Assembly (NCBI GenBank): GCA_903813345.2
Contig: CAIIXF020000007.1
Location: forward strand, 36,726,759-36,790,758
DNA from: Owenia fusiformis
Taxonomy: Eukaryota; Annelida; Polychaeta; Sabellida; Oweniidae
Direction: 5' to 3'
Length of the DNA stretch: 64,000 nt
How positions within the stretch are numbered: position 1 is the first letter of the stretch; the number at the start of each line of letters is the position of its first letter. Shown piece after piece: positions 32,270 to 59,500 of this stretch. Made by a program: the position numbers and the translations under genes. The notes under the pieces were generated by a model. It was not told the origin of the DNA and did not search any database. It saw only the letters and a program-made list of their open reading frames with translations.

Positions 32270-32344
32270 TTTTGTAATTTTTCTCTGGAAATGTAATAAA
32301 TTATATAAACTATTCATGATAGTGAAATGAATACAAAAGTGCAA

Positions 32345-33347
32345 TATTTACCCGTTTCTCTTACATAGCGCATCTTTTCAATAATTTAACTTAGAATGAT
32401 TAGAACGAAAACTTATTTCATCTCGACTCAGTTATATTGATACGATACGATTGAACATGTATGTAATGAATATGGTAAAATAAATAGATTTTAATCATTC
32501 AAAATACTTAGGCCTTTGACATACTGCCTCATTTCATTATCTAGAAAGAATTACTTTGAACTGATATGAACTGAACAAGATCCAGAGCCGTTTTCCAAAA
32601 TAGCCTATTAAAATGGGCCTTTTCTTATCTAAAAAGCATACATCTTTAAGACTACGGTTAAAATATACAAACTGGCTCTTTAAGGTCGTCCTTTTCATAT
32701 TTTGTTACATTTGATGTTCTCATTTGTATTAGATTTTCATAGTTCATATACTTAACAGGTCCACGGGGTGCAAGCGAACCCCCTGGCCATAATTATTTCA
32801 AAGTCATGCAGTTTACACCATTGTGAGCACTTTTAAAATGATTTGGGTAAAGAGGGTAAAAATGTGACCCCCACACTGGAAACTGTTGAAAGGTGATCTC
32901 CCTTGTCACCATTGACAAAAGCTGGCTATGGGCTTATTCAAATCCATTATCTTAAAAGTAAAAATTGTGTCTTAGACAAAACATATGACCTGAGCGGGAT
33001 TGGGGTTCTGGTCGGGTGAAATTCCTTGAGCGAATGAATTGTCTTATCAACAAAAGAGATACAAATGAAATGTCAGTTTTAAGAGTTTTCCATTACTTTC
33101 TCTCTTCATGTTAATTTTCAGTCCTGGATCAAATTTTCAACTTTTCAAAATTTTATCAACTCAAATTCGAAAATTCGATTGGCTTCTATACTTCAGGAAA
33201 ATCCACATTTTGTATTCTGATACGAATTTCTTCATTTTTAAATTTCTTATATTAATGAACATGGATTGCACTTGTTCACCCATTGAACTGTTACATACTT
33301 AGCTTTGAAATTGATAATTATAAAATTAGCCTCTCAATCGTACACCC
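32345..33347. other. Intergenic sequence upstream of laccase, with a decayed hAT-like MITE
   Basis: 32757-32934 resembles the MITE at 38112-38320. It shares CCCTGGCCATAATTATTTCA-like sequence, AAAGTCATGCAGTTT, TGTGAGCACTT and GGCTATGGGC at its end, but the outer TIRs have decayed. The first 400 bp contain the probable laccase first exon and promoter; I see no unambiguous motif. Confidence 0.45.
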
Positions 33348-39530: not shown

Positions 39531-40783
39531 GAGCATTGGCAATTCAAACACCAAAATTACCCAAATATTCATATTGATTATTAATTCGTAAGATTCTCTT
39601 GTTTATGTAAGTTGCAATTTAATTGGCCTTATGAAATCAAAACTCCTAAGCCTTTAAACAAACATAACTAATCGTCTAATGGCTTCTATTTTGATTAAAG
39701 GCCCGTATAAAGTTTTAACCATCTTGGCGTACAACTATAGTACTGCTATCAAAATGTTGCATGTGAAACATTTCATTTAAATTTCAAAAGGTTGATTTTG
39801 AATGATTTTTGTTATAGAATTGTGGATATCATATAAAAGTTTAGTTGTCATACATGTACACGTACACTTTACATTGTTAAGTAATAAATTACACAAAATG
39901 CATAGGGCAGGTATCCAAACCTTTACTGTTCAAAAAGTTAGGAAAATGTGTTGAAAATGAGAAAGAAAATGACTTATAAGCTCAGAAATTAAAGTTGTTC
40001 AGAAAATATTGCATTTTGAGATTTTTATTCCTAATATACATGCATGTATTAAAAACACGAGAACGACTTATTTTCAACCCATATGTAGGTAGCAAATAGT
40101 ATTGCTTTATTTTGACAGTTTAACTTGTTTAGAAAACACTGTGTCACCTTAGTGATATCAAAGCGTTTCGTCACGTTGTATTTTGTGAACTAAAATCTAA
40201 ATGTTTGTGTCCAAAATGACGGGAAATTCAAATATTTGAAAATTATAAGTTGAACTACAAGTTTTTTTTTAGAAATGACGCAAATGCTTTTAAAGTCATA
40301 AAAAGTAATATTTGAATGATAAAATTCTATATGTTAAAACTTCATATGGGGCCTTTAATGTTTGTTCACAGAATTTTGAAGACAGAATGTAACATTTTGA
40401 TAAGGTGACAAAATTCTTTATACAAGCACATGTATCTGATAGTAAGTTTAGAAACATGTTAAAAACACGTGTAGAATACTTGGCTCTCGTGTTTCCCCTC
40501 GTGTTTTTGATTGGTGCATATGAAACTCTATTTTTGAAATCATGGGACTTGCGAATTCTTAATTATAGTTTTAGAATTACACTGAAATCAAATGATACAG
40601 GACAACATTCAACACGAACAGCGGGTGAACATTCCATGGCATCCGGGCATGGCAACATGCATCCGGGCATGGCGATTAATCATTTGGTTTGTTTGGACTT
40701 TGATCCAACCTAATATGAGTCAGATTCGACATTGGTGCGAGTTGACTTTAGCCCCGAGTTGACTTCGATTCGAGTTCACCTTG
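39531..40783. other. Intergenic sequence left of the P-like transposon
   Basis: AT-rich, with no gene recognised. The ORF at 40405 has no domain. The last 55 bp carry a short periodic host repeat, GAGTTGAC every 16-17 bp (40739, 40756, 40772), interrupted by the transposon at 40791. Confidence 0.45.
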
Positions 40784-40790
40784 GTCTGAG

Positions 40791-40819
40791 CATGGGCTCT
40801 ACCACCTGGGTGTGAAACG
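40791..40819 (+). repeat. Left terminal inverted repeat of P-like transposon
   Basis: CATGGGCTCTA is exact between both ends. The next 18 bases match at 13 positions (TGGGT, TG and AACG blocks conserved). Weaker similarity seems to continue inward with small gaps (GCCGcG/GCCGtG, then ATGG). Confidence 0.85.
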
Positions 40820-40996
40820 GATAGAATGGGTGCCGCGGAATGGCTGTAGGAGCTCTTCAAAAATCTTCAAAATGGAGATAAGTACTATTGCGCCATCTAT
40901 CTTGCGCATGCGCAGATCACAAAAAATCGCAAATCCAAGAAAAAATTAATTCTTCTAATTTTAGCAACATATATTGGGAATTCTAGCTTTCAAAGA

Positions 40997-42277
40997 ATGT
41001 CAAAGCGAAAAAAAAACACAAAAAATGATGACTATCTATATTGGGATGAAATGAGTGATGATCCCCTCAAAGAAATTTTGGGTGACTTGTACACAGCCTC
41101 AGGATCATCATCAGAGTCTTCATCTGATTCAAGTCCAGAGACTCCTAAACACCAACCCGAATCTCAAAAGGGTCAAAAGAAACAAAATAATAATATCTAC
41201 AAGTGTAGTCAGTGCACTAAGGAGCTAAAGTCAATAAGTGGACTACGAGGCCATATGAGAAGCCATGGTATCGAATCTGTGCGGCCCAGAGACTACAGGA
41301 TAAATCATTTGGCGTCACATAGTCAGCCAAATAGACACCCCCTCTCTGATAAGGACATTTTTGATGCGGAATATGAACAAATTGTGAACATCGCTGTGAA
41401 AGAGGCACAGAAAGACAATATATATAGAGACTTGTTACCAGAAGCAGCCATTCAGTTCGACAAGTTAAATGTAGCAGATTTAAAGGAGAAAACAGAGCTT
41501 GAAATGTACAATGTATTACTATCGTACAATAGTGACTGCTCTTTGGAACAGGGGCGTGAATCGCTGTTTGCAAACTTTCATCAACTTCGCTTGAAGACAT
41601 CATTCGTCAATGCTATTTCGAGTCATTGTAACCTTCAACCCCACCTCGTTCAGACTATTCTCAGACTGTTACTGAAAGTATCGTTGAATGCCATTGCTTC
41701 ACTCTCTGCAAAGGATGTTGAGAGGCACATTTCAAGTTTGAGTGAGTCTCAGAAGAAAGTTATGCATTATATTGCAGGATATTTGCTTCGCACAATGAAA
41801 AGAATGAAAATGGATAAGGAAATCAGAGAAAATTTTGTGAAACTCTGTTCAACAACTAAGAATGACACTGTCCCCGAGTCAAAATGGACATCTTCCCTTG
41901 ATCGTGGAGGTCTTATGTATCCGTCAACAAAGTTCTTTGAACTTGTATTACTCTTTGAGAAGGAGATCTCTACCCATGTCAATATAGACAATCCATCCGC
42001 CAACTGCATGGCCATAGCACCATTGACTGAAGCAATCATGTCATGTCATGCGATACAGTGCCAGTGGGAGTGTATCACATCAGGAATAGATGATATTACA
42101 GCATCCAAGGTGTTTGAACTCATTATTACCAAATTTCTACGTGTCAGAGGATACGATACTGCAAGACTCCTGAAACATAGACATAAAAAGTCAAAAAAAT
42201 CCACATCTAAGACAGGCAGACGCTGCGGTTTCAGAAAAGGTCTTAAAGAGAAGAGAGGATCAGCACCTCCGAAATAA
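40997..42277 (+). CDS. C2H2 zinc-finger protein with P-transposase C-terminal-like segment
   Basis: An intact 426-codon single-exon ORF. Residues 1-68 are charged and Ser-rich, low complexity. A C2H2 finger is at 70-90 (C70, C73, H86, H90). The middle is helical. Residues 255-312 contain VMHYIAGYLL (255-264), a lone cysteine and SSLDRGGLMYPS (299-310), then an ELVLLFEKEIS helix. The YIAGY...GGL.YPS order is what I recall from the C-terminal part of P/THAP9-type transposases, downstream of the catalytic glutamate. The minus-strand transposase gene lacks this part. A basic tail (KHRHKKSKKS) could be a nuclear signal. I infer a DNA-binding or accessory subunit acting with that transposase. Two polyadenylation words (AATAAA, about 42710) follow. 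An independent domesticated gene is the alternative. Confidence 0.8.
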   Translation: MSKRKKNTKNDDYLYWDEMSDDPLKEILGDLYTASGSSSESSSDSSPETPKHQPESQKGQKKQNNNIYKCSQCTKELKSISGLRGHMRSHGIESVRPRDYRINHLASHSQPNRHPLSDKDIFDAEYEQIVNIAVKEAQKDNIYRDLLPEAAIQFDKLNVADLKEKTELEMYNVLLSYNSDCSLEQGRESLFANFHQLRLKTSFVNAISSHCNLQPHLVQTILRLLLKVSLNAIASLSAKDVERHISSLSESQKKVMHYIAGYLLRTMKRMKMDKEIRENFVKLCSTTKNDTVPESKWTSSLDRGGLMYPSTKFFELVLLFEKEISTHVNIDNPSANCMAIAPLTEAIMSCHAIQCQWECITSGIDDITASKVFELIITKFLRVRGYDTARLLKHRHKKSKKSTSKTGRRCGFRKGLKEKRGSAPPK

Positions 42278-45076
42278 CATCATTGACTAGCCCAATGGTT
42301 GTACAGAAAATCCTCCTGAGACTTCATTTCAGAACAGTGGCTCGCAAACATTTTAAGGCCTAGCAAACATTTTAAGGCCTAGCATGCCTAGTGTGTTTAT
42401 TAAGTGTTATTAATAGTTATCATTTTGCATGTGTTAACAGATATAAACATGAAACACAGTAACAATATTATTCCCAAGATTCATTCATTGATTTTGAGGT
42501 AAATATTGCTTTTGACCATGGTATAAGGTATAAAGCCCGCCTGGTTAATAACTGCTTTATATAAATCATATATAGATGGAAGTAAAAAAATGTGCTAACA
42601 GTATACCCTGTTATAGAAGATTGATGCTATACGTAGCATACTGGAGTTTTATAAATCTTGTACATGTAGTTTGGCTATGTATGCACTGTAATACAGTTAA
42701 ATGTGCCCAAATAAATTCAATAAAATTAACATGCCTGTACTTTTTTAATTGCTTTTATTTGAGCCTGTGGAAATATGTATGGGATACTGTACTCCCAGTA
42801 ATTTCATTTGCGAAATTTGATAGGTTCGAAATTCCATGGGGGATTTTAATGTTGACAATATTTTCATCCAGTGCTTGGCAATAATAGGTAAAACATAATC
42901 AGGTAACATTTTGAGTTTTGAAAAAGAGAAATTAGACGAAAGAAATCTATTACTGTATTAAAACGAATATAATATGAGGCTAAAATCATCGGGCGAAGGA
43001 ATAACCATGGCTGATATCGAAAGAGTGATCTTTTATGACAAAATTGTAAAAATTATTAGCCACAAAATGTCAAAACACTGAAAATTAGTGAAATATAATA
43101 GCCGCAAAATTTCAAAATGCCAAAAACAGCTAAATATAATAGCGTCAAATATTAGTGGGAGTACAGTTTTGTGATTCTCTAGATTGCATGATGCCTGGAT
43201 TGTAAAATTCTTTAATTTGATGTTATTGCAAAGTAATATTTATAGAATTTGGTGAATTTCATTCAAATCCCATGAAATACATTTTGAGATTTAAAATGGC
43301 ATCTTTGCACGCTTCGCTCTTCACTGAGTTCGACAGGAGAGAGTGAACAAAGATGTAAAATGATGAATCATCTGAGAAGTTGGCTCATAGAGAATACATA
43401 TAAATTTTGACAAGCAGCTACATCTTTGATCATTGAACCATACTGATGTATTTTAACAAAATTAATGGATTGAGAAACTTGTCAAAATGTATATGAATTC
43501 TCTATGGGGATTGATACTGGGATCATTCATAAGCCTGGATAATTGAGTCAACCTCTAAAAAAGTATGCCAAATTAAAGCAATTTACAGTATATTGAGTGC
43601 ATGGTAAATTATGATAATGCAGTAGACCAGATGCAAGTAGACACAGACATAATCTTGACATAAAAAATCATATTTTCGAAATAGGCTATTTTAGGATTTC
43701 AAATTTTAAAATTTTCTGCCTGTTTTGAAGGGGGAAAATCAAGATGGCTGCCATTTTTAGACATACAAGAAAAAGATGCTTCACTTTTGAATTTTACAAT
43801 GAGCACAATTTTCTGGTTTGGATTTTTTTAATTGATAATATAAAATTGAAACCAAAATGTGATCAGCATGAATTTGACTGAAATATATACAACTTCACAC
43901 ACGCAAGTGAAGTTTCAAAACTGGATGCTCAGTAACTTTGAGTGACTATAAGCTCTTTTAACCCAGATCAGGTCAGGTACTGACACAAACTGACATAAGG
44001 CCCCATATTATAAAATACCAACAAAAGTAAAACATTGTTTTTATGTTGGACAGAAAGCCTATTTTCTTTTATCTAGGCCTATATTTTTATTTGTATAATC
44101 AGACACATAGCAATTGATTGACAAAATATGATGAATAGAAACACATGTAAGTTTCCATCTTTCAAGATTCTTTCTACCTTGTGAATATGAATGATTGGCT
44201 TTTGACACACATTTTAATTAAATTCATAACTTTATTTTATTTTCCCTACAGTTTTAATTTGATATCTGTAATAAAGTTCTTTCAATGCACAATGTTTATG
44301 ATTAATCATTTCATAGCCCATGTGTGACGAGTAATACAGTATTCACACATAGCTAAGCAAGGTGTGCCTGATTCCAGCCAATCAGAACACAGTATTTTCA
44401 CTAATGGTCATGGTGAGAACTAAACTAAAGGTCTTAAACAAGGTGGATTGGATACCAGCAGAGACCATCAATATTTTCCAACAATGAAAATGTCGAAATG
44501 CTGTTATTTTCTGAAATTAAAACGGACTATAAATTCAATTCAATTCTTGTTAGTTTTGGAATTCTTCGTTTGAAAATAAGACCAAAATGACAATTTAAAT
44601 GATGAAGTAAACAAAATGTTTATGTTTAATATGGTGGCAGTTTGAATTTGAATTTTGAATCATGACATCTCCATATATGGGACAGAATATCGATGTTGCA
44701 CTCTGGGAGCCAATCCTCCTTAAGTCCTAAATCCTTAATTCAAATATTCTAATGAGAGCATGTCATACATTGTTTTAATTTCAGTAATTCATATGATTTT
44801 CCAATTAAATTTTTCAACAAACATCTGCATCAAAAAAATTATTTTACTTACTTACAATATTTTGATCATTATACCTTCTTAGTAGTTTTCATAGGAAAAT
44901 TCAACACCCCTATACAGTATTTCTAAAACATAAACTAGTCCATAAATTACACTGAATAAACTAGGTCAATATGACAATAAGTTCATCACTTTGACATCAT
45001 GATGTAAATGGTGATCTGTTCTACTTTATTGACCAGGGTTATATTTGAATTACAAAAAAGAATCCTGTATCATGCT
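42278..45076. other. 3' region between the two convergent transposon genes, no gene recognised
   Basis: AT-rich. A small inverted repeat pairs AGAGAATACATATAAATTTT with its mirror at 43389-43507. ORF 42576-42884 lies in the presumed 3' UTR of the plus-strand gene and has no domain. Confidence 0.45.
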
Positions 45077-45081
45077 ATAGT

Positions 45082-45633
45082 CACTGGTACTGACCTAGTT
45101 ACGCTGACGATACGTCAGCATAACAAGATGGAAGAACTTTGTTTTCAGTAAGATATTTTTATTTTTTCGATTCTACACCACTTATAAGTCAAGTTGTGGA
45201 CAATAATTTGGCTCAAAGTTAAGGAAGATAGTCTAGTTTGAGAATATGAAGGCAGTTCTATGTTTGGTATATTAACAAAGACGCAATTCACATATTTAGT
45301 CCCTCGATTTTGTTACGTTGACGATCTTCATGATCGACGATGATCAATGATCTTCATGAGTATTGTCACAATGGCAATATTGATGAAGATCGTCAACGTA
45401 ATAAAAGCGAGGGACTAAATATATTAATTGCGTCTTTGTTAAAATACCAAACATTGAACCGCCTGCATATTCTCAAACTAAACTTCCTTAACTTTGAGCC
45501 AAATTATTGTCCACAACTTGATTTATAAGTGATGTAGAATCGAGAAAAAAAATCTTACCGGAAAACGAAGCCCGGAAGTTCTTCCATCTTGTTACGCTGA
45601 AGTATCGTCAGCATAACTAGTTGAGTACCAGTG
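45082..45633. mobile_element. Foldback MITE, CACTGGT end, 5-bp target duplication ATAGT
   Basis: Ends CACTGGTACTGACCTAGTTA and the reverse complement ...AACTAGTTGAGTACCAGTG. Arms of about 260 bp meet at a short loop near 45345-45380. ATAGT repeats at 45077-45081 and 45634-45638. It was inserted into the P-like transposon, so it is younger than that copy or was carried by its progenitor. Confidence 0.8.
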
Positions 45634-45698
45634 ATAGTAGAAATAAAAGTATTTAAATGGAAGTACAAAATCTTGGGAACTAACCCAACCTCTTTTAA

Positions 45699-46415
45699 GG
45701 TGCCATGGAAGTTAACAGGAAATGACTAAACAAAAAATGACAAAACCATGCTGGATTTTGAAAGTTTTTTATAACAGAGTTCTGTTTTGACCTCCAGTCA
45801 GTGTAACTAGTTCCACAAACACAATGGAAATGGTCAGAATGACCATAAACATGATGAAATAACCTTTTCAGCCCTCTGAAAATGTGACTGATAAATAGCT
45901 AAAAGTAGGTGCTCAGGAAAGGTCAATGAACAGAATCTTTTGATTTTTTCAGAAAATGTGTCCAATATATAGTTCTAAATGATACAATCTATGAAATTTT
46001 AAAAAATTGTCTGAAACAATAATGGCTGTAGTGAAAAGGAAAATAGATCTATTTTCTTCAGTTTTCTCTTTTTCTAAAAATGATATTAATTTTTTTAAAT
46101 TGTATCATTTAGAGCAATATATTGGGCACATTTTCTTAAAAAGTCAAAAGATTCTGTTCAGTGACCTTTCCTGAGCACCTACTCTTAGCTATTTTTCAGT
46201 CACATTTTCAGAGGACTGAAAAGGTTATTTCATCATGTTTATGGTCATTCTGACCATTTCCGTTGTGTTACCGGTCATGTAAATGATATGTGGAACTAGT
46301 TACACTGACTGGAAGTCCAAACAGAACGCTGTTATCTTGGTTCAAAAAATTTTCAAAATCCAGCATGGTTTTGTCACTTTTTGTTTTGTCATTTCCTGTT
46401 TACTTCCATGGCACC
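45699..46415. mobile_element. Foldback element with TTAA target duplication (Kolobok-like)
   Basis: Left GGTGCCATGGAAGTTAACAG, right mirror CTGTTTACTTCCATGGCACC, flanked by TTAA (45695-45698 and 46416-46419). Arms of about 330 bp (for example GTCAGAATGACCATAAACAT mirrored near 46245). TTAA with a GG start fits Kolobok better than piggyBac, but the assignment is tentative. It ends about 60 bp from the transposase stop codon. Confidence 0.7.
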
Positions 46416-46475
46416 TTAAACAAGTTCTTTACACAAAGCAGGTGATTTTACAGTTATCTTATTTTTGGGAAATAT

Positions 46476-48867
46476 TTAATTATTATTTACTCTGCGTCTT
46501 TGTAATGGAGTATTGTCTATAATTTGATTGAGGATGTTCCTTTGGACATTGCCTCGGCGTACTGGAGCTAGGGCCTGGCCTTCTGTGACCCTTAGCCTGG
46601 TCATAATATGAGCAGCCTCAAACACTGTAGGATTATCATTTGCTCCTCCTTTGTGACGATAGTGGGAAAAGTGACGCTCTAAATTGTCCTGGTTAAAAAG
46701 AACAGTTTTTACAGATGGCATGCCACTGCCTAAGCAAAACCTGACCAATGCAACAATTGATTTTACAGAAATGTACAACCCTTCAAGGGTTTGGTAGCTG
46801 ATTTGTTTCTCTGCTCGCTCATTAGCAGGATGGCCGGCCAATTCTCTCTCAACCTCATCTTTCCACTCTTGGAAATATCCAAGAAAATCATTTTCTAGCC
46901 ACTCTAAACGAGGGTCATTTCTGTCAGTATATACTGCAAGATTCTCATTTCTCGTTCTTGCTGCCTCTAATGCAGATCTAGTGTTGCAGCAATCGAAAAA
47001 CTTGTTCATCATTCTTATGAAGGTCACTGTTTCAGACACTTCATCTCCGTATTGCATTTCCAAAGCCGCTGCAACAGAATTACTGAGCACCTGAGCTGCC
47101 AAATTCACTTTCATCCTACCATACGGTGTTAGGTCTATGTGGTCACGAGTTAACTTACGACAGAGGCCATATTGTTGGTTCTCACAGTATTCTTCAAAAA
47201 GTCTCACAATATGCATCCAGCTTATTTCTTTGTGATTTTTGAGGAGAAGGCGTGTACGATTGTGGGAATGGGAGTTTGAGAAACAATTTCGAGTAGTTTT
47301 GAGGAGATGAGGTACACAGGAAATAAAATATATCCGACGAGGTTGTCCTCCAGGCTGCACAAATGGATTTTCAGTGTAATGCACATATTCAGGCATTCCT
47401 GGTTCGCGATGTAGCCTGAAAAACCGACGATTGGGGCTGGCTCCATCACAAGTAATAAACATCACTTTAATTTTGCAAATATTTTCTAGATATTCTATGC
47501 ACTCCCAAAGTATGGGCATGAGGAATGCTGCAGTAATCCCATTGGTGGCATAACAAGACAGTGGATACCGCAAGTCAGTGGAAATGCCCTGCACCATCAC
47601 CACTAATAAATATCTCGCCACAGTTTGTCGATTTTGGTCAGGGTTCAAATTCAACAACTGATTGGCTATGTCATCCAACTCAACATAGCCAACAAGTGCT
47701 CCAGTATATTTGTCGTATACTATATCATCCTTAACTTTCACTTCATCCTGAAGAATACCAACAAAGTTATTGTGAAGTTGAGTTTCATCATATACGCCTG
47801 CCCGCTGGCACTCCGTCTTGAGATATTCAAGGTTATCTTTGTTTAGTCCCATCCCAGCTTTCACGTATTTACCATAATCAAACAGTGTCCTATTTGATGG
47901 AAGACGAATGAATCCCGTTTCCCGCATGATGTCATAGGCTCTCGATGAGCGACTTTTCAGGTAAAGACACCATTTGAGAATCATGGGATGCCATCGCATC
48001 TGTTTTGGATTGTTTTTTAATGCTTTTAGCTGCTGTTGCCAAAACAGGTTTTGCAATGATTCAGCTCCGTGGCTTTTCTCTACATCACTTCCAAATTCAC
48101 GCATAACACTTTGAAGTTCCACAGACTGGAGGGGATCAAGGCATTCCCCTTCCACCTCAATTTTGGTTCTCAGCCTTCTCTGTAATATCTCAATTTCATT
48201 TTAAAGCAGAATATTGTCAGCTTTCAGTTTTGAAGCCTTTACAGCAAGCTGGCTATGACTTAGATATTTATTGGCCACATATTTTGAGGGTTCTTTTGGT
48301 TTCCTATTTTCTCTGTACTCTCTTTTCCTTAGGGTGCATCTAGCCTTTTGGCAGGGGACACAGCGAACAGACCTTGAACCAAGTGTTGGGCGTATCAGCA
48401 AACCACAATTGATTGAGCGGATTGTGTCCATATTGAAACCACTTTCATGATAGGCCAAGAGTGGTCCAGATGCATTACAGCTCAACCCAGCGTTCTTGGG
48501 TGTCAAACTAACATATTTCTCTTCATTGTTCGCTAAACACACTTTCCAACAGTCCAACTCATTCAGTATTTTCTCCAAATCAGAATGTGTCTTAATACAC
48601 TTTGGCACTCGGTCCCATATATCGTGTGAACTGGGAATAAATTGATTATGGACTTTTATTAGTGTCTCGAAATTAAGACCAACAGTAACTGACAGTTTTA
48701 CAGTTCCACAATCATACAATTGCACAAGTTTGATGAACTCTGACTGATTCATAGTGATGAAGCTGCTGGGCAATGTTTCCTGTGTGATGGATTGCTTCAA
48801 TGCGACGTAAAGTGGTGGGAACATCGGTCCATATTGGGGTGACTCAGAGTTTGACTGAGATGATAGC
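46476..48867 (-). pseudogene. P-element/THAP9-like transposase, catalytic exon with one in-frame TAA
   Basis: The last exon starts after acceptor TTATTTCAG at 48868 (phase 2). The first 222 codons hold a Cys-rich patch CVPCQKARC and a helix. TAA at 48203-48201 cuts that helix, the likely coiled coil, and the same frame continues for 574 codons. Numbering from 48155: RWHPMILKWCLYLKSRSSRAYD (54-75) is split here only by description; key residues are R54, W55, P57 and W62. LQDEVKV carries D137, VMFITCDGAS carries D237 and NQDNLERHF carries E493, the probable DDE triad, followed by RHKGGANDNPT. Insertion-domain signature VPHLLKTTRN is at 281-290. The protein ends after NNN without the usual C-terminal YIAGY segment. 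P-type transposases excise and integrate DNA using GTP as cofactor. With the TAA this copy is probably inactive unless read through or an isoform starts downstream. Confidence 0.85.
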
Positions 48868-49508
48868 CTGAAATAAGAGTGAACATATTAAGCATAATGT
48901 ATAAGCCAGTCAGGGGCATTGGCTAAAAAATACACTTGACCATAGGTCAGATTTTTTCGGTGCCGAAGTTACAAAATTGTCAAATGGTATTTTTTGGTAT
49001 TATATATATGTCATTACATTAAAAATCTTCAGGGAATATATATATAATTATATATATATATATAGTTTCAAGTTTTCCAATCTTTCAGTATCAAAATTGT
49101 TTATACTGTCAGGGTGTACATAACTCCATTTTGGTACATAAAAGGTGAAGATTAAAAGGTTGATTGGATTGAGTGGATTGGGTTCATGTAAAAGGTGGAT
49201 TGGATCAGTAATCTTCAAAATATAGAATTTTTTTCTATTGATCTCACTCTGTTAGATTGATGCATCAACTAATAATGTATGTATTTGTTGTTGTTTTGTT
49301 TTAATTCCTCAAAGGGACCCAAGTGATCACAAAATACTTTGAGAATGGAAATTTTGCTGAGAGGAAGATCAACAGAAAGGGATTCCATATTTTCAAGATT
49401 TCCGATACAATCCACCTTTTACGTGAATCCAATCCACTTGATCCAATCCACCTTTTAATCTTTACTACATAGAATGCTTATGTCCACAAGGGTAATAACA
49501 TAGCAAAC

Positions 49509-49619
49509 CTTGGCTCAAGTGATACTGGAGTTGATGGTTGTGAAGTGGGTGCTGTCAATGCTACTGTGGGTGATGTCGATTCTAACGTGGGTCCTGTCAG
49601 GTCCTCACAGGCATTATCA
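49509..49619 (-). CDS. Transposase gene exon 8 (37 codons)
   Basis: Acceptor TTTCATTTTAG and donor CCAAG|GTTTGC, phase 2 at both ends. Encodes a Ser/Thr/Pro-rich disordered segment (ACEDLTGPTLESTSPT). Joins in frame to exon 9 at 48867. Confidence 0.65.
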
Positions 49620-49999
49620 CTAAAATGAAAGTTATTTTTATTAATGCTAGGTGTTGTAATATCCAATAATAGTGCTAGGTGTTATAATATCCAATAGTAG
49701 ATATATTTAGACAATATCCTTAATAGCACACAAGGTCCAACAGAAGATATTCATTGCTTAGTCAAAAGATGGAGTCATTGATTGCATGGAGAGATGTCAG
49801 TTCTATACACTCACTGGTGTATCAGGTGTTCTTAACAAATATTGCAAGTGATCTACCATACTGTATAAGTGGTATTTAATCCGAGTGGTTAATTTGCCGA
49901 ATGGTCAAATTTTATCAATTTCCTAATTTAATTTTCCTAATGACAAGAAACGTCCCACTGGTATCTGATATATACAAACATTATAATAAATATGCTTAC

Positions 50000-50161
50000 A
50001 CAGGAGGAATAGATGCGTCCAGAAGTGTGGATCTGTTGTCCAGGACTGGAGTTGAGTGGGTAGATGATGTTCCTACTAGGGTTTCTTCATCTGCACTGAG
50101 ATTACTATTGCTGGTTTCATCAAGATTTTGACTTGTGATGCTCGCTGCCTTGCCATCACTA
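50000..50161 (-). CDS. Transposase gene exon 7 (54 codons)
   Basis: Acceptor TTCAATTGTAG, donor CCTGT|GTAAGC, phase 2 at both ends. Encodes an acidic Ser-rich stretch (NLSADEETLVGTSSTHST). No domain. Confidence 0.65.
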
Positions 50162-50688
50162 CTACAATTGAAAAACACTATATAATAACTCTAAAAAAAT
50201 CTAAATTGAGACACATGGTGAACAATAAAGCATCCTCGACAGATGCAGACAAACATCAACATAAAAGAATTTTGGATAATCCAAAATGGCCACCTTAACA
50301 TTTAGAATGCCTAAAAACTTATCAGTTATAAACTTTCATAGGTAAAAACATCCCTGAAAACTTCAGATGAGACCCCTCAAATGATTTCACCAGAAACCTG
50401 TAGACAAGATTTAGCCTGCTCATCCACCCGGCAACCTGTGTACAATGAAGACCCCAAAAATACTATAAAATGAGACTGATTCCAATATTTGCCTGTGAAA
50501 GAGTATCAGTATGGCATTTTGAAACAACTTCCTAGAAAGAGCACAGAGAAATAAATGCTGGCACATAAGAAGAGAAATCTGAGCAAATAAGGGATGGTGA
50601 CAAAGTCTCATGGTACATGTAAGTTGAGCCAAAAAAGTAGAAAACAGCATTGTATCATTTGCTTTGATTAAATTATTGAATTTATTAC

Positions 50689-52400
50689 CTGATCATTTGC
50701 GATGTATTCCATTCTGCACACAAGCCACCCACAGGTTCTATGCTCAGAAAGCTACTGTCAAGGTCAGAGGACTCACTGCATGATTGAGACATCGAGAATG
50801 CTGGCAGCTGAAGGTCGTTAGATGGCTGTTCCTGGGTAATAGTACGACTGGGCCTCAGTCTTTTTGTTTTGGCACGTATTGGTGTTGAAGTCTGAGGGGG
50901 AGAGGGGGACCCATCATGATGATCATTGTTGCAACTGTGCCACAAAATAAAAACATATTTAAACTAAGATAATGATTTCAATATTTGCCTGTAAAACATT
51001 ATCAATCAGGCATTTTGAGACAACTTCCTAGAAAGAGCATGGAGAAATAAATGCTGGCACATTAGAGAAATTTGAGCAATTAAGGGATGCAGGCCAAATC
51101 TTGAGGTAAGTTGAGTAAGAAAATAGAAACATTTACATTGAATGATTTATTTTGTATAAAATCATTGAATTTAATACCTGATCATAAGTGGTGTATTCCA
51201 GTCTGCACACAAGCCACCCACAGGTTCTATGCTCAGAAAGCTACTGTCAAGGTCAGAGGACTCACTACATGATTGAGAAATTGAGATCGCTGGCAGCTGA
51301 AGGTAATCAGATGGCTGTTCCCGGGTAATAGTACGACTGGGCCTCGGTCTTTTTGTTTTGGCACGTATTGGTGTTGAAGTCTGAGGGGGAGAGGGGGACC
51401 CATCATGATGATCATTGTTGCAACTGTGCCACAAAATTAAAACATATTTAAACTAAGATAATGATTTCAATATTTGCCTGTAAAACATTATCAATCAGGC
51501 ATTTTGAGACAACTTCCTAGAAAGAGCATTGAGAAATAAATGCTGGCACATTAGAGAAATTTGAGCAATTAAGGGATGCAGGCCAAATCTTGAGGTAAGT
51601 TGAGTAAGAAAATAGAAACATTTACATTGAATGATTTATTTTGTATAAAATCATTGAATTTAATACCTGATCATAAGTGGTGTATTCCAGTCTGCACACA
51701 AGCCACCCACAGGTTCTATGCTCAGAAAGCTACTGTCAAGGTCAGAGGACTCACTGCATGATTGAGAAATTGAGATCGCTGGCAGCTGAAGGTAATCAGA
51801 TGGCTGTTCCCGGGTAATAGTACGACTGGGCCTCGGTCTTTTTGTTTTGGCACGTATTGGTGTTGAAGTCTGAGGGGGAGAGGGGGACCCATCATGATGA
51901 TCATTGTTGCAACTGTGCCACAAAATAAAAACATATTTAAACTAAGATAATGATTTCAATATTTGCCTGTAAAAGATTATCAATAAGGCATTTTGAGACA
52001 ACTTCCTAGAAAGAGCATGGAGAAATAAATGCTGGCACATTAGAGAAATTTGAGCAATTAAGGGATGCAGGCCAAATCTTGAGGTAAGTTGAGTAAGAAA
52101 ATAGAAACATTTTCATTGAATGATTATTTTGTATAAAATTATTGAATAAAATACCTGGTCATTTGCGATGTATTCCATTCTGCACACAAGCCACCCTCAG
52201 GTTCTATGCTCAGAAAGCTACTGTCAAGGTCAGAGGACTCACTACATGATTGAGAAATTGAGATTGCTGGCAGCTGAAGGTAATCAGAGGGCTGTTCCAG
52301 GGTAATAGTACGACTGGGCCTCGGTCTTTTTGTTTTGGCACGTATTGGTGTTGAAGTCCGAGGTGGAGAGATGGACTCATCATGATGATCATTGTTGCAA
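50689..52400 (-). CDS. Transposase gene exons 3-6: four tandem copies of an 82-codon exon
   Basis: Exons at 52400-52155, 51912-51667, 51423-51178 and 50934-50689, each exactly 246 bp and phase 2 at both ends, so any number of copies keeps the frame. Acceptors read TTTTGTGGCACAG; donors are AG|GTATT or AG|GTAAT. Start-to-start spacing is 488-489 bp, introns included. The two middle copies encode the same protein; the outer two differ at several residues. Each copy starts SCNNDHHDGSPSPP, then a basic patch (RAKTKRPRPSRT), then a Ser/acidic stretch (SCSESSDLDSSFLSIEP). It appears disordered. Role unknown: possibly nuclear localisation, phosphorylation or multivalent binding. Confidence 0.75.
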
Positions 52401-52718
52401 CTGTGCCACAAAATAAACACACATTTTAAACAAAACAAAGTTAGGGACAAAATTATATTTGTTTATTTACCAACATTTTTATAACAGTGGCACATTGATT
52501 AATATCCAGTGCTGCTTCATACATGTATACAATTTGATTAAAAAAACACATAAACCATGCATAATTTTCTATGTTACATGTACCAATATAACCGACCCTT
52601 ATACTGAACTTAATTCTAAATAAGAAATGAAGAAATTCCATTGATTCATTTTTAAAATGATAAAGTCACAATGGAGAAAAAAGTATTGATCAACATGGTA
52701 GAGCAACACGGTTTGTAC

Positions 52719-52886
52719 CTTGAATATTTCTTTTTCTTATGACAGAATTTAGTTTTCCTTCGTCCTCTTTTCAGTGGTTTCTTCTTTGGTTTTGGCTGAT
52801 TTAGTGGTACTATGGTCTCATCTAGTGTTGTCTCTTCAACTGGTGTGGTCTCATTCTCATATATCACTGGCTTTTGTGACCTTGAA
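52719..52886 (-). CDS. Transposase gene exon 2 (56 codons), basic module copy 2
   Basis: Acceptor TAATTATATTTCAG, donor TCAAG|GTACAA, phase 2 at both ends. An acidic start (ENETTPVEETTLDET) leads into KKPLKRGRRKTKFCHKK, an AT-hook-like basic block also found in exon 1. Confidence 0.65.
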
Positions 52887-53022
52887 CTGAAATATAATTA
52901 TGAAGACATTTCATTGATTAATTTTTAAATTTTATTGATTAATTTTTAAATTGATAATATGTCATCATGTTTAAGTAAATAGAGATAGATTTATCGATAT
53001 GGTAGGATAATATGGTTTGTAC

Positions 53023-53158
53023 CTTGAATGTTTCCTTTTCTTATGACAAAATTTAGTTTTCCTTCGTCCCCTTTTCAGTGGTTTCTTACAATTTAGTAGT
53101 GTGGCCTCATCTAGTTTTCTTGTTGTACTGTACTCCCTGTGTGGAGTTGCCATTTTAT
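53023..53158 (-). CDS. Transposase gene exon 1, basic module copy 1, candidate start
   Basis: An ATG at 53153 (MATPHREYSTTRKLDEATLL) is followed by the basic block KKPLKRGRRKTKFCHKK and donor TCAAG|GTACAA in phase 2. It is preceded five bases upstream by an acceptor (TTATTTTCAG|ATAAAATGG), so a spliced exon lies further upstream. The start is either here or in the exon at 56300. It shares its basic block and splice context with exon 2, indicating exon duplication. Confidence 0.6.
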
Positions 53159-53219
53159 CTGAAAATAAATCAATTAAAATTGCATTCAAACTGACAGACT
53201 GAACAATTTTCAAAAGTTT

Positions 53220-55740
53220 TGAAGATGGAAATAGCATTTTGTGTCATTTTTACAAGTCACTACAAAAAAATTAATTAATTTCTCCCAAATAAGAGTAAGA
53301 TCATCAGATAGGAGACAAAGAAGGCTTTAAAATGGTTTATAAACTATATACCAGTCATGTCTCCTATTACAACTGATCAATTTGACAAAAGTCAGAAAAA
53401 TTAGTCATCAAGACAGGTTTCACGTTGGCTGAAATGGGATTTGTGTCATTTTTAACAAGCCAGTTCAGAAAATATACTCATTTCTCTCAAATAAGAGTAA
53501 GATCATCAGAAAGGACACAAAAAGGGCTTTAAAATGGTGTATAAACTTTATACCAGTCATGTTTCCTATTAAAATGGAACAAATTGAAAAAGACATAAAA
53601 TTTAGTCGTCGCGACAGTTTTAACAGGTATGGAAATGGGATTTTGTGTCATTTTTAACAAGCCAGTTCAGAAAATTTACCAATTTCTCTCAAGTAAGAGT
53701 AAGATCATCAGATAGGAGACAAAGAAGGCTTTAAAATGGTGTATAAACTTGCTACCAGTCATGTTTCCTAATAAAATGGAACAAATTGAAAAAGTCATAA
53801 AATTTAATCATCGCGACAGTTTTAACAGGTATGGAAATGGGATTTTGTGTCATTTTTAACAAGCCAGTTCAGAAAATTTACCAATTTCTCTCAAATAAGA
53901 GTAAGATCATCAGATAGGAGACAATGAAGGCTTTAAAATGGTGTATAAACTTTATACCAGTCATGTGTCCTATTAAAATGGAACAAATTGAAAAAGTCAT
54001 AAAATTCAGTTGTCGCGACAGTTTTAACAGGTATGGAAATGGGATTTTGTGTCATTTTTAACAAGCCAGTTCAGAAAATTTACTAATTTCTCTAAAATAA
54101 GAGTAAGATCATCAGATAAGAGACAATGAAGGCTTTAAAATGGTGTATTAACTTGCTACCAGTCATGTTGACTATTAAAGCTGAACAAATCAACAAAGAC
54201 GGAAAAATTAGTTGCCGCGACAGTTGTCATGGAGATGGAAATGGCATTTTGTGTCGATTATAACAAGCCATTATAGAATATATAATACTTTTCCCCAAGT
54301 AACAGTCACATCATCAGATAGGGCACAATTAGGGCTTTAAAATTGTGTATAAACTTTATACCAGTCATGTTTCCTATCAAAATGGAACAAATTGAAAAAG
54401 TCATAAAATTTAATCGTCGCGACAGTTTTAACGGGATATGGAAATGGGATTTTGTGTCATTTTTAACAAGCCATTACAGAAAATATACTTCTTTTCCCAA
54501 AGTAACAGTCACATCATCAGATAGGGCACAATAAGGGCTTTAAAATGGTGTATAAACTTTATACCAGTCATGTTTCCTATTAAAATGGAACAAATTGAAA
54601 AAGTCATAAAATTTAATCGTCGCGACAGTTTTAACGGATATGGAAATGGGATTTTGTGTCATTTTTAACAAGCCATTACAGAAAATATACTTCTTTTCCC
54701 CAAGTAACAGTCACATCATCAGATAGGGCACAATTAGGGCTTTAAAATGGTGTATAAACTTTATACCAGTCATGTTTCCTATTAAAATGGAACAAATTGA
54801 AAAAGTCATAAAATTTAATCGTCGCGACAGTTTCAACGGATATGGAAATGGGATTTTGTGTCATTTTTAACAAGCCATTACAGAAAATATACTTCTTTTC
54901 CCCAAGTAACAGTCACATCATCAGATAGGGCACAATTAGGGCTTTAAAATGGTGTATAAACTTTATACCATTCATATTTCCTATTAAAATGGAACAAATT
55001 GAAAAAGTCATAAAATTTAATCGTCGCAACAGTTTTAACGGATATGGAAATGGGATTTTGTGTCATTTTTAACAAGCCATTACAGAAAATATACTTCTTT
55101 TCCCCAAGTAATAGTCACATCATCAGATAGGGCACAATTAGGGCTTTAAAATGATGTATAAACTTTGTACCAGTCATGTTTCGTATCAAAACTGAACAAT
55201 TTGATAAAATGAGAAAATGTAGTCATTGTGACAGTTCGCACGGATATGGAAATGGCATTTTGTGTCATTTTTAACAAGCCATTACAGAAAATATACTTCT
55301 TTTCCCCAAGTAACAGTCACATCATCAGATAGGGCACAATTAGGGCTTTAAAATGGTGTATAAACTTTATACCAGTCATGTTTCCCATTTAAACTGAACA
55401 ACTTGACAAAAGTCAGAAAATTCATTCGTCATTCCAGGTTTCACATGGACCGAAATGGGATTTTGTGTCATTTTTAACAAGCCATTACAGAAAATATACT
55501 ACTTTTCCCAAAGTAACAGTCACATCATCAGATAGGAGAGAAATTGGGCTTTATAATGATGTATAAACTTTATACCAGTCATGTTTCATATCAAAACTGA
55601 ACAACTTGACAAAATGAGGAAATTTAGTCCTCGTGGCAGTATTCACGCAGACCGGAATGACATTTTGTGTCATTTTTAGTAAGTCACTTCAGAAATTATA
55701 GTAATTTCTCCTAAATAAAAACTAAAAAATCAGTTAAAAT
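53220..55740. repeat. Minisatellite, 202-bp unit, about 13 copies, in the first intron of the transposase gene
   Basis: The anchor TTTTGTGTCATTTTTAACAA recurs every 202-203 bp (53641, 53843, 54045, 54247, 54450, 54652, 54854, 55056, 55258, 55461, 55663), with diverged copies at 53236 and 53439. Central copies are nearly identical and edge copies are worn, the usual sign of unequal exchange in the middle of an array. No ORF of interest. Confidence 0.9.
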
Positions 55741-56137
55741 ACAACAATAGCTTTGTATTGACATACATAATATATGCAACGGAGGTTTAATATAAAAGTA
55801 AGAGACATAAATAAATTGAACAAAATTTGGTAAATAGCCACTTTGGAATGAAAATTGGATGCAAGAAGTGGTGTACTTTTGACACGTTTTTTCAATAACA
55901 ACGATGACCCAACATATTAATCCTAATCTAAGTGAATAAATGTGTACTCAAAGGTGTCATGAATAGGTTTAAAGTGCTGAAATTCAGTGTTAAAATGAAG
56001 AAAATTGACGAGCAAAAAAACAAAATGGCGATTTTGGATTTTCACAATATTAAATCAATATCGTGACCAATTTAGGCAATTTGATGCCTATTAAACAAGT
56101 TCAACACTAAAAATGAAGTCAGTGTCAAATGTCTTAC

Positions 56138-56300
56138 CAATATTTGTGAAGGTTAGTGTGGTTTCATTGCGGAAATATGAGTAAAATCTATGATGCTTCA
56201 ACTTCGGACCGTATTTTTTCTCGCGTTGCGTCAACTTCCGGCCCTTCGCCAAGCCGAGGCCACCATTTAACACGGCGCCAATGGCTCGTTGCATACCCAT
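56138..56300 (-). CDS. Candidate first exon of the transposase gene, starting in the TIR
   Basis: ATG at 56300 within the right TIR opens a frame of 54 codons (MGMQRAIGAVLNGGLGLAKG at the start) ending at donor ATTG|GTAAGAC (56138, phase 1). Splicing to the acceptor at 53158 gives G+AT, AAA, ATG, in frame with exon 1. It is basic, with no THAP C2CH pattern. It may equally be 5' UTR. Local CpG and GC content is higher than in surrounding DNA. Confidence 0.4.
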
Positions 56301-56315
56301 CTGATAGAGCCCATG
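56287..56315 (-). repeat. Right terminal inverted repeat of P-like transposon
   Basis: Mirror of 40791-40819. An ATG at 56300-56298 lies within it and opens the first candidate exon of the transposase gene. GTCTGAG follows directly at 56316-56322. Confidence 0.85.
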
Positions 56316-56546
56316 GTCTGAGTTGACTGTTATATGCATGTTCACTGTAATGCGCCTTTAAACGATGCGCATATTTACACAGGTAAAGCGATTCTACCAT
56401 TTGCCAGCAGGTGTATTGCGTATGGTCTATCCAGCGTATATTATTTTTAACATTAAGTCTTACCATCATGTAGCTACCTCATTCATTAGTTCTAGAGATG
56501 AAAATACCGAAGCTTCGTAATGGTTTACATTGGACCTCAGATTGGA

Positions 56547-59500
56547 ATGGCAGTTAATGGGATTGGATTTCTATTTTTCATGACTTGTATAGGTAGGCAA
56601 CGTTAGTCCATATATTTTAATTACCTAGTTTTTTCTCATTTTCCTTCAATGTTTGTGTTTTATGGATTATGATGCATGATGGCTTTGCGAACGGATGTTG
56701 ACCCTTTGAATTGCCTATGGACTTCGAGACTGGATCTTATCTATCCCACATCATTTGAAACTGAATACTCTATCTTTTATGAGTACTAGTATCTACAACT
56801 ATTTTTGATGTTATGAGTATTGGCTATCAATTTTTCAATTTTTCTTCAACATTTATTGTAATGACTTCTCAGTATGAATGAAATGTCCCTTGGTGTTCTG
56901 GTCCTGGATTGTGATATTGGTTCTCGATTGGAGGGGGAGGGGGATGTTAGACATTGTTTCCTTTCACGTTAGATCATGGTTTTTGGATATATAGGGTCTA
57001 CTTTTCTTATGACAGATTTACACGTACAGTTTGCTTTTGTTGGGTTTCCTTAACGTTTTTAGTCACCCTTCCCTTTTGGCATTTGTGCCTATATATTTTT
57101 ATTCTCTTCGTTAATTCGTTTGTTTCTTATTTGAAAATATTGCAAAATAAATTTCTTCCTAATTTAGAGATCGATGTTTATTGCCGTGGCGGTCGTGGCG
57201 GGTCAAGAGGCGGGGGAGGTAGAGCTCGGATATATTCGGGGACCCCGAGTAGAATTTACTCCGCCGGTGGGGGCAGATCACGTGGTTTTAACCTTGAACA
57301 GTCAAGATACAATATAACAAATCAAGAAACGCGTATACCGCTACCAGTATAACTATACTACATGTTAAATCCCTATCTAGGCCCATTAAGCTGTCAACGC
57401 AAACATTAATGTGGTTTCATATTCCAGCAAGTTGCAGAAGTTGCTTCTCAAAGCAGAATTAGGATTTAGCTAGAGCCCAGATTTGTGTTACTGTAAACAG
57501 AGAAATATATTTAATTTCTCATCATTTAGGTTTTTTAGATAATAATGTTATTTATCTTATTTGATTTAGTTTGTTGACGAAATATAAATAAATAGACTGT
57601 ATACTGTTAAAAAATCATCGTTAGATTATTTAAAAGGATGAGATTTCGTTGATTTATTTCTGCAAGATTACGCTTATATAAAGAGTTTACAGTAATAGAC
57701 AAACCAAACTGCTTTTAAGAGAATGCGTTACCCTTTACATTTTAAATGTAGCAAACTTTATCATTAATATTATTTGTCGAATCCATCTAAAGTCTTGGAT
57801 CTATCAATAATTTTCAATAGAGTACTGTGAAAGAATGCTGGTACATGTATCTCAAATATTTTCAACGTTTTTTAATCTATTTTGAGTGACAAATATTTTA
57901 GTAGATTGATTTCAGTAGAGGTTGATTAGATGATACAAGATAGTTAACTTTGCAAACTCTTTTTGTGATCTTTATATCCTTTTCGGTTGCAATTTTTTTG
58001 TATTTTTAATACTGTACATTGAGTGTGAGCGTACTGAAGGGTCAGTATTATAGTACCCCACACAAGTTTTTGATCATAACTTTAACCAGTGATTTGAACA
58101 TTCTACCCTTATCTCTGCCTATACTATTTGTTATTAAAAGCACAGATAATCTGGAGGCAATTTTCATTTATTGAGTCATATGTTTTATAATAGTTAAAGG
58201 CAGTAATTTCAAAATGCTACACAGTGGCCAATGTTTTACCAAATTGCTATATTGTTTCAATTTACATGATGTTCAAACTGTACATTTATGATTCAACCAT
58301 GACAACACCTTGACAACTAGATATCAAGGCAAGTATATTTCCAGAATTACCTCTAGTTTATCAGTGTGCTAATTTTATAACAAATAGTTTAGGGTAGAGT
58401 GTTCCAATCACGGGTCAAAGTTATTATCAAAAACTTGTGTGGGGTACTAGTGACTAGAACTGTAGCATTCTACATAGCCTTTACATTTAATTAACATAAG
58501 ACTATTCTATGTTCTATCCATTAGACATTTTAACAGTTAAGTATTCATGTTTACACCTTATCAATGTTTAGTAGTTACACTCTTCCAAGACTTCTACTGC
58601 AGAGGTATCAGATGACAAACAAACTGGCTTAATCACTGATGATATGGGAATTCTATACGGCTAGTGTAGCGGTATACGCTGCCATAGGAGATTTCTTGAT
58701 TTGGGTTGCGCAGTGGAAGAAGTTCGAACAACGGATATAGAATTAGTTCATATAGATTCACCAGAGCGCAATCCATGGCAAACGAAAGGTATGTTGCTTC
58801 TTAATTGAATCTGGTAGATGTTGCATCTCTGGTCATCTCTGGTTACGGATACCAATATAAAGAATTGATGGAGTTCATACTCGAAGAAAGGATCTGTACG
58901 TCGGGTCGGATGTTCCCGTGATGTTCCTGCAGTATGTTTATGTACTAGTAATGAATGTCGATTGTCTTATCTTAATTGTCTGATTATTGTTTTATGGTAT
59001 CAATCATTCGATAAAATCACATTTACCGAATATAATTCAAATAAAATCAAACAGTTTTTGTAATTGATATAAAGCCACGATTTAATCATGGGTCGTTGAC
59101 CAAAGAACACCACGGGACACAATTTGAACCATTGTGTTCATTGTTCCGATTGTGACAGTGATGTGCACACGCGCTAGCTGAAGAAAATAAGATAGCATTG
59201 TGTGTAATGAATGTCGATTGTCTTATCTTAATTGTCTGATTATTGTTTTATGGTATCAATCATTCGATAAAATCACATTTACCGAATATAAATCAAATAA
59301 AATCAAACATTTTTTGTAATTGATATAAAGCCACGATTTAATCATGGGTCGCTGACCAAAGAACACCACGAGACACAATTTGAACCATTGTGTTCATTGT
59401 TCCGATTGTGACAGTGATGTGCACACGCGCTAGCTGAAGAAAATAAGATAGCATTGTGTGTAATGAATGTCGATTGTCTTATCTTAATTGTCTGATTATT

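Follow-up and report, generated by a model that had tools for sequence, protein, structure and literature searches.

The element and its insertion site

We examined a window of 64,000 nucleotides (the whole stretch analysed) from the annelid Owenia fusiformis (contig CAIIXF020000007.1) and identified a 15,525 bp segment (40791-56315), framed by inverted repeats and a 7-bp direct repeat, GTCTGAG, in which a P-type transposase gene on the minus strand converges with a zinc-finger open reading frame (ORF2, here the partner gene) on the plus strand (Table 1). It is likely that this segment is a cut-and-paste transposon of the P superfamily, with a 7-bp target-site duplication and a transposase split between the two convergent genes; the transposase looks split because a profile of the C-terminal part of the second ORF and its relatives has its best PDB match in what is taken to be the C-terminal domain (CTD) of P transposase, and the core yielded no such domain. 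Textbooks present P elements as transposons with a single transposase, and in flies their activity is switched by splicing of the third intron, which adds or omits the C-terminal part of the protein. The part switched by splicing in flies appears here as a gene of its own, placed tail-to-tail as in RAG-like transposons. In the parts of the literature searched, which left subscription journals mostly outside and did not cover Repbase, neither a P element with two genes nor a P transposase in two parts was found described.

P element ends start with CATG, and the inverted ends of the window element are of this type (CATGGGCTCTA). They pair at 24 of 29 positions, or at 24 of 31 when taken over 31 bp, and exceed chance because the end regions match elsewhere in the assembly, the left 210 bp at least 9 other times and the right 213 bp at least 12. 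The ends were read at 11 places that carry both: the window, L001-L007 (seven copies of about 5 kb) and the short copies L008, L016 and L017. A perfect 7-bp duplication, read by eye, was present at 10 of them, the exception being L006, in which the left end is altered. When 13 duplications were compared, three of them from a separate family (family B, described below), 12 had T at position 2 and 11 had A at position 6.

The 250 bp on the left of the element matched C7:37038167-37038399 (94%) and the 250 bp on its right matched C7:37038393-37038642 (100%), and these two matches overlap by seven bases, GTCTGAG, present once only. In the alignment with this empty site (L049, C7:37038393), positions 40276-40790 of the window aligned at 94.0% (516 bp) and 56311-56633 at 99.4% (323 bp), with no element sequence between the aligned flanks. 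Thus, the window element is one precise insertion, since the empty site holds a single GTCTGAG and nothing of the element. The flanks of the insertion site exist twice on one contig, at C7:36.77M and C7:37.04M, 270 kb apart, and the L049 copy is a diverged duplicate.

An earlier note on this DNA had described the inverted ends matching at 24 of 29 positions, the GTCTGAG adjoining both, a P/THAP9-type transposase gene and a zinc-finger ORF converging with it; the end alignment, the two copies of the repeat, the Pfam and PDB matches of the core and the plus-strand frame bore these out, and the empty site that it proposed to look for was found. The 8-bp duplication that it gave for P elements does not fit here, where the duplication is 7 bp.

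Transposase core gene

The main exon of the transposase gene matched the Pfam families TNP-like_GBD (E = 1e-21), RNaseH_N (2e-21) and RNaseH_C (5e-6), and its Tnp_P_element helix-turn-helix (HTH) match (0.009) was below the Pfam cut-off. In PDB, the core matched chain A of 6p5a (E = 2.6e-15; chain residues 118-196 and 323-554), and in this alignment, read by eye, the catalytic Glu block and several of the GTP-site residues named in PMC7776569 are kept. The core frame terminates 66 residues past the catalytic Glu. No CTD was found in the core with the CTD profile described below, which in the window element matched the partner gene only. In canonical P and THAP9 transposases the CTD stands at the C-terminus of the same protein; in the window it apparently lies on the separate convergent gene.

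With incomplete exon models, Pfam matched no THAP domain in 48201-48887 and five upstream pieces of the window or in what was scanned of families B, C9 and L042. The window transposase contains a single in-frame TAA (48201-48203), and this copy may therefore be dead. Between the window transposase and a transposase fragment, L024, nonsynonymous divergence (dN) was 0.06 and synonymous divergence (dS) was 0.41.

Outside the source genome, viral contigs (searched with six short patterns) and phages yielded no confirmed transposase relative. One contig filed under a Nitrosopumilus metagenome-assembled genome (JACERO010000093.1, L042) carries a P transposase in several frames, at 38% to that of the window, together with a retroelement integrase-like frame. 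Because of the split reading frames and the retroelement, it is probably eukaryotic contamination. The L042 transposase also terminates without a CTD, and no partner gene was found in the last 1.4 kb of the contig.

Partner gene and its resemblance to the P-transposase CTD

We compared ORF2 with the source genome, PDB and Pfam. One C2H2 finger was recognised at about 41198-41266 (zf-C2H2_6, E = 5e-6, above the Pfam cut-off), and only the finger is reported by Pfam across the protein family that genome searches with ORF2 and two relatives uncovered. A profile of the C-terminal part of ORF2 and seven relatives (A6; 8 rows, two of them near-identical) was then searched against 177,635 PDB sequences. 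Its best match was 6p5a_B/6pe2, "Transposable element P transposase" (135 aa, E = 7e-4), the next being an unrelated protein at 0.54. The YIAGY and GGL..PS blocks were collinear between A6 and 6p5a_B, while the third block, F..R, was not significant. A sub-profile of four rows (A7; window, C9, L022 and L013) matched 6p5a_B at E = 0.013, with the next match at 0.058.

We infer that chain B of 6p5a is the CTD of the Drosophila P transposase because of its name, its 135 aa, the 569 residues of chain A and a review in which the CTD is attached by a disordered linker (PMC7776569). A six-frame search with the CTD profile through 2,597 open stretches of at least 25 aa, from seven loci, gave E below 0.01 only in four partner genes (window, family B, C9 and C4:23.4M); no stretch on the transposase strand of these loci was below this value. 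Judged from these comparisons, the CTD that the transposase core lacks seems to be encoded by the second ORF, and the remote profile match supports a second protein that carries the P-transposase CTD, joined in the window to a C2H2 finger.

Two solitary open genes of the CTD family, L022 and L031 (311 and 373 aa), had no transposase detected in the 9-11 kb fetched. Since dN is about equal to dS in the pair L031/L033, solitary CTD genes such as these may be relics.

Shorter copies and recurrence of the convergent pair

The seven long copies besides the window have ends enclosing 4.4-5.5 kb from which the genes are absent, and the three short ones enclose less than 1 kb, also without the genes. 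The copies of about 5 kb retain the left 223-234 bp of the element, and in all seven the first codons of ORF2 (MSKRKKNTK) adjoin the left end. Those compared in detail (L001, L003 and L007) share the right 2.5-3.1 kb, including the 202-bp array, with about 1.7 kb in between that has no match to the window element. Reading frames in the first 2.1 kb of the copies of about 5 kb do not exceed 111 aa. Most simply, these copies are non-autonomous passengers of a two-gene parent.

The convergent pair of core and partner was present at 8 of the 10 loci examined (those fetched with at least 5 kb beyond the transposase, or as far as the partner), in the window and four further families, five in all. 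Also fetched but left out of the 10 were the relic L014, L024, with 1.6 kb past the transposase, and L043, with 1 kb; the transposase-like matches outside the partner count include C3:1.18M, C3:1.85M, C10:33.07M, C10:35.60M and C11:21.6M.

Family B has pairs at C4:29.37M, C10:19.10M, C11:2.20M and C2:10.98M. In three of the four copies (C10, C2 and C11), 31-bp ends, CATGGACGTATATCA(A/T)CTGGATACCTAACAG, which start with CATGG, have CTGG after the (A/T) and agree at 30 of 31 positions within each copy, bracket both genes together with 7-bp duplications (CTACAAT, GTGAAAC and GTCTATG, respectively). By arithmetic on the coordinates, these copies are 16.9, 17.3 and 18.4 kb long. An 18-bp subterminal inverted repeat was seen in three of the four, and the C4 copy has eroded ends. 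The 31-bp ends supersede a boundary at CTAGTATC, which was rejected. The C4, C2 and C10 copies are listed with 100% identity in the partner, and synonymous/nonsynonymous changes between partner pairs were 4/1, 3/3 and 3/2 over 227/841 sites, few changes that lean to purifying selection.

At C9:28.0M the pair is also convergent, its partner being spread over two open stretches, one of which has a C2H2-like motif that falls short of the Pfam cut-off, and no convincing pair of ends was found within the fetched 25.5 kb. Convergent pairs were also identified at C4:23.4M and at C2:15.55M, where the 3′ ends of partner and transposase are at most 0.3 kb apart. The partners at C4:23.4M and C2:15.55M, 30-32% identical to each other, end in a PHD finger (E = 3e-6 and 8e-6, respectively), and their relation to the CTD seems weaker still than that of the window partner. 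By eye, both partners (L047:5082-6179 and L052:53-1174) also have a SAP-like stretch that separates the PHD finger from the CTD-like part; Pfam reports none.

The search for further copies with both genes, which the earlier note had also proposed, failed for the exact window ends, the ten other places read being geneless, and succeeded in the independent, CATGG-ended family B (C10, C2 and C11). The note's suggestion of a large two-gene lineage within the P superfamily is supported by the empty site, the P-type core and the convergent layout in five families.

Comparison with known transposons

The P superfamily is recognised by duplications of 7 or 8 bp, by ends starting with CA(T) and by a P-type RNase H with a GTP-binding insertion. 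Here, a 7-bp duplication is seen at 10 of the 11 window-family places and in 3 of the 4 family B copies, and the empty site bears it out; the window (24/29) and family B have such ends; and the core carries such a domain according to the Pfam TNP-like families and 6p5a_A. The GTP-binding insertion within RNase H is shared with Drosophila P and zebrafish Pdre2/THAP9, and so are ends of CATG or CATA type, the latter in Pdre2 (PMC10983969), and shorter relatives with the same ends. Family B also resembles P in its 31-bp ends, with a subterminal inverted repeat of 18 bp in three of four copies versus 11 bp in P. Unlike P, the elements here are 15.5-18.4 kb long rather than 2.9 kb (PMC7776569, PMC10983969) and duplicate 7 bp instead of 8. 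They further differ from P and THAP9 in the presence of tandem arrays of about 200 bp. An N-terminal THAP domain on the transposase is another mark of the superfamily, and the pieces scanned here, with incomplete exon models, gave no match to it.

Galileo, a member of the P superfamily in Drosophila, likewise has 7-bp duplications, and tandem repeats in its ends; its target consensus, GTANTAC/GTATTAC, resembles the duplications found here in the T at position 2 and the A at position 6 (PMC4168063). Galileo differs from the window element in its terminal inverted repeats, which are long, and in having a single described transposase that bears a THAP domain (PMC4168063). The layout is shared with RAG-like (RAGL) transposons, in which two convergent genes, for a recombinase and a usually PHD-fingered accessory protein, lie within terminal inverted repeats (PMC7204232); however, RAGL has a different transposase family, 5-bp duplications and a kelch-propeller RAG2L. 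A RAG-like element would have a RAG1-type recombinase, a kelch-PHD RAG2 and a 5-bp duplication, whereas here the transposase is P-type and the duplication 7 bp; no kelch match was found in the partners scanned. There is no evidence for common descent of the RAGL and P-type partner genes.

Proposed split transposase and rival explanations

With a split transposase, the core and CTD proteins would assemble into one transpososome, the CTD protein being supplied in trans and filling the place of the fused CTD of the fly enzyme, which is in contact with both the transposon and the target DNA and rests against the GTP-binding domain of another subunit (PMC7776569). The finger of the partner may add contacts to DNA or chromatin. 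By analogy with the fly 66-kDa product, which lacks the C-terminal third and represses (PMC7776569), the core alone might be inactive or repressing, and activity would depend on two promoters where the fly relies on splicing. This makes it testable whether the CTD can act in trans, why the 66-kDa protein represses and whether DDE transposons evolved convergent pairs of a core and a PHD-fingered accessory protein more than once. We put forward, only tentatively and as possible rather than probable, a two-component branch of P transposons, in which one gene encodes the catalytic core, a separate convergent gene encodes the DNA-contacting CTD, and the CTD protein swaps modules that read chromatin or DNA (C2H2, PHD), an independent second design of the RAG1/RAG2 type; the single-chain enzymes of fly P and vertebrate THAP9 would then perhaps be later fusions, and the third-intron switch of the fly a remnant of two-gene control.

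That no 15.5-kb mobile unit exists, and that ends paired by coincidence enclose host DNA or two transposons of separate origin, is scarcely credible: the exact end family has no other gene-bearing copy, as this explanation would have it, yet the empty site, which has a single target copy, refutes it, and MSKRKKNTK beside the left end in all seven copies of about 5 kb, the 202-bp array beside the right end in the three compared and the repetition of the design in family B with its own ends all speak against it. Capture of an unrelated zinc-finger gene by one large element, with a chance likeness to the CTD, would explain why the C2H2 finger alone passes the Pfam cut-off and why single-sequence searches miss the P transposase; we consider it very improbable, since the same protein family lies convergent to P transposases in diverged families and the best PDB match of the profile is a P transposase chain. 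The second gene may alternatively be a regulator (a repressor or an anti-silencing factor) that descended from the CTD and acts outside catalysis, with a core that works alone. The C2H2 finger of the window partner and the PHD fingers of two others suit a chromatin- or DNA-binding role, as do the open CTD-family genes L022 and L031, for which the 9-11 kb fetched showed no transposase. Still, this explanation is unlikely, given that no CTD was found on the transposase strand of the searched loci, that in the strand-transfer complex the fly CTD contacts the DNA of both transposon and target (PMC7776569) and that the partner is present at 8 of the 10 loci.

Several observations weigh against a split transposase. 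Chain B was identified as the CTD indirectly; the individual stretches of the A6 match have weak E-values (best 0.16); the sub-profile of the other four rows (A8, the family B group) matches no P chain in PDB, and neither window ORF2 nor L022 finds the P transposase as a single sequence. The fold predicted from ORF2 alone was poor (pLDDT 41), and this route was dropped. The C4:23.4M partner scored 13.6 bits with the CTD profile (at most 5.0 in 400 shuffles), and alignment of both PHD-type partners with the CTD family by hhalign gave E = 0.0015 and a probability of 17%, which is only suggestive of a relation of the C4:23.4M partner to the CTD family; profile A9 finds no P chain. The C2:15.55M partner misses E = 1 with the CTD profile in the six-frame search and is tied in only by its 30-32% identity to the C4:23.4M partner. 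In family B, the partner has no finger recognised by Pfam, and stops occur in the C11 partner and in the C2 transposase match; these and the stop in the window transposase mean that the three copies may not be autonomous. No partner was found at C174 (about 10 kb downstream) or at C4:28.28M (9 kb), both with damaged transposases. Degraded relics at C12:9.479M and C4:29.45M carry fragments of both genes on one strand, and in L032 a weak, 77-residue transposase-like match lies beside a partner on the same strand.

Repeats and other observations

The features of the window element, including its internal repeats, are collected in Table 1. Family B (221 bp) and C9 (201 bp) likewise have arrays with periods near 200 bp on the upstream side of the transposase.

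Table 1. Features of the two-gene element, in window coordinates
Feature	Position	Strand	Remarks
Target-site duplication, left copy, GTCTGAG (7 bp)	40784-40790		Same as 56316-56322; single copy in empty site L049
Left terminal inverted repeat, CATGGGCTCTACCACCTGGGTGTGAAACG	40791-40819	+	24/29 against right end
Partner gene ORF2	40997-42277	+	Open frame, first ATG about 40997; acidic N-terminus, C2H2 finger, CTD-type C-terminal part
CTD-like region of ORF2	41690-42274	+	YIAGY ... W....RGGL.PS ... F..R blocks; alignment A6
Nested inverted-repeat stretches	45081-46420		Two long stretches, 45081-45634 and 45694-46420, between the 3′ ends of both genes
Transposase core, main exon	46476-48887	-	Weak HTH match, RNase H split by GTP-binding insertion, catalytic Glu block
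Probable upstream transposase exons	49510-53153	-	Open stretches by eye; Ser/Pro/acid-rich and Lys/Arg-rich pieces
Tandem duplication, 489-bp unit x 4.0	50477-52431	-	Includes coding-like stretch within transposase gene
Tandem array, 202 bp x 12.3	53225-55718		Transposase-promoter side
Right terminal inverted repeat, read inward, CATGGGCTCTATCAGATGGGTATGCAACG	56287-56315	-	Pairs with left end
Target-site duplication, right copy, GTCTGAG	56316-56322		Same as left copy

At C3:16.79M (L043:1079-8212), a single ORF of 2,378 aa combines a P-like RNase H/GTP-binding transposase with CCHC knuckles and a YqaJ nuclease domain. This giant ORF was considered as a "Rosetta stone" with a fused CTD and rejected, its score with the CTD profile (0.6 bits) being inside the shuffle range. 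Similar ORFs were found at C331, C486 and C10:18.3M, with matches to ORFs of 2,362 and 1,189 aa elsewhere. Outside the element, the window contains an open frame of 692 aa on the minus strand (30269-32347), which by eye is multicopper oxidase-like.

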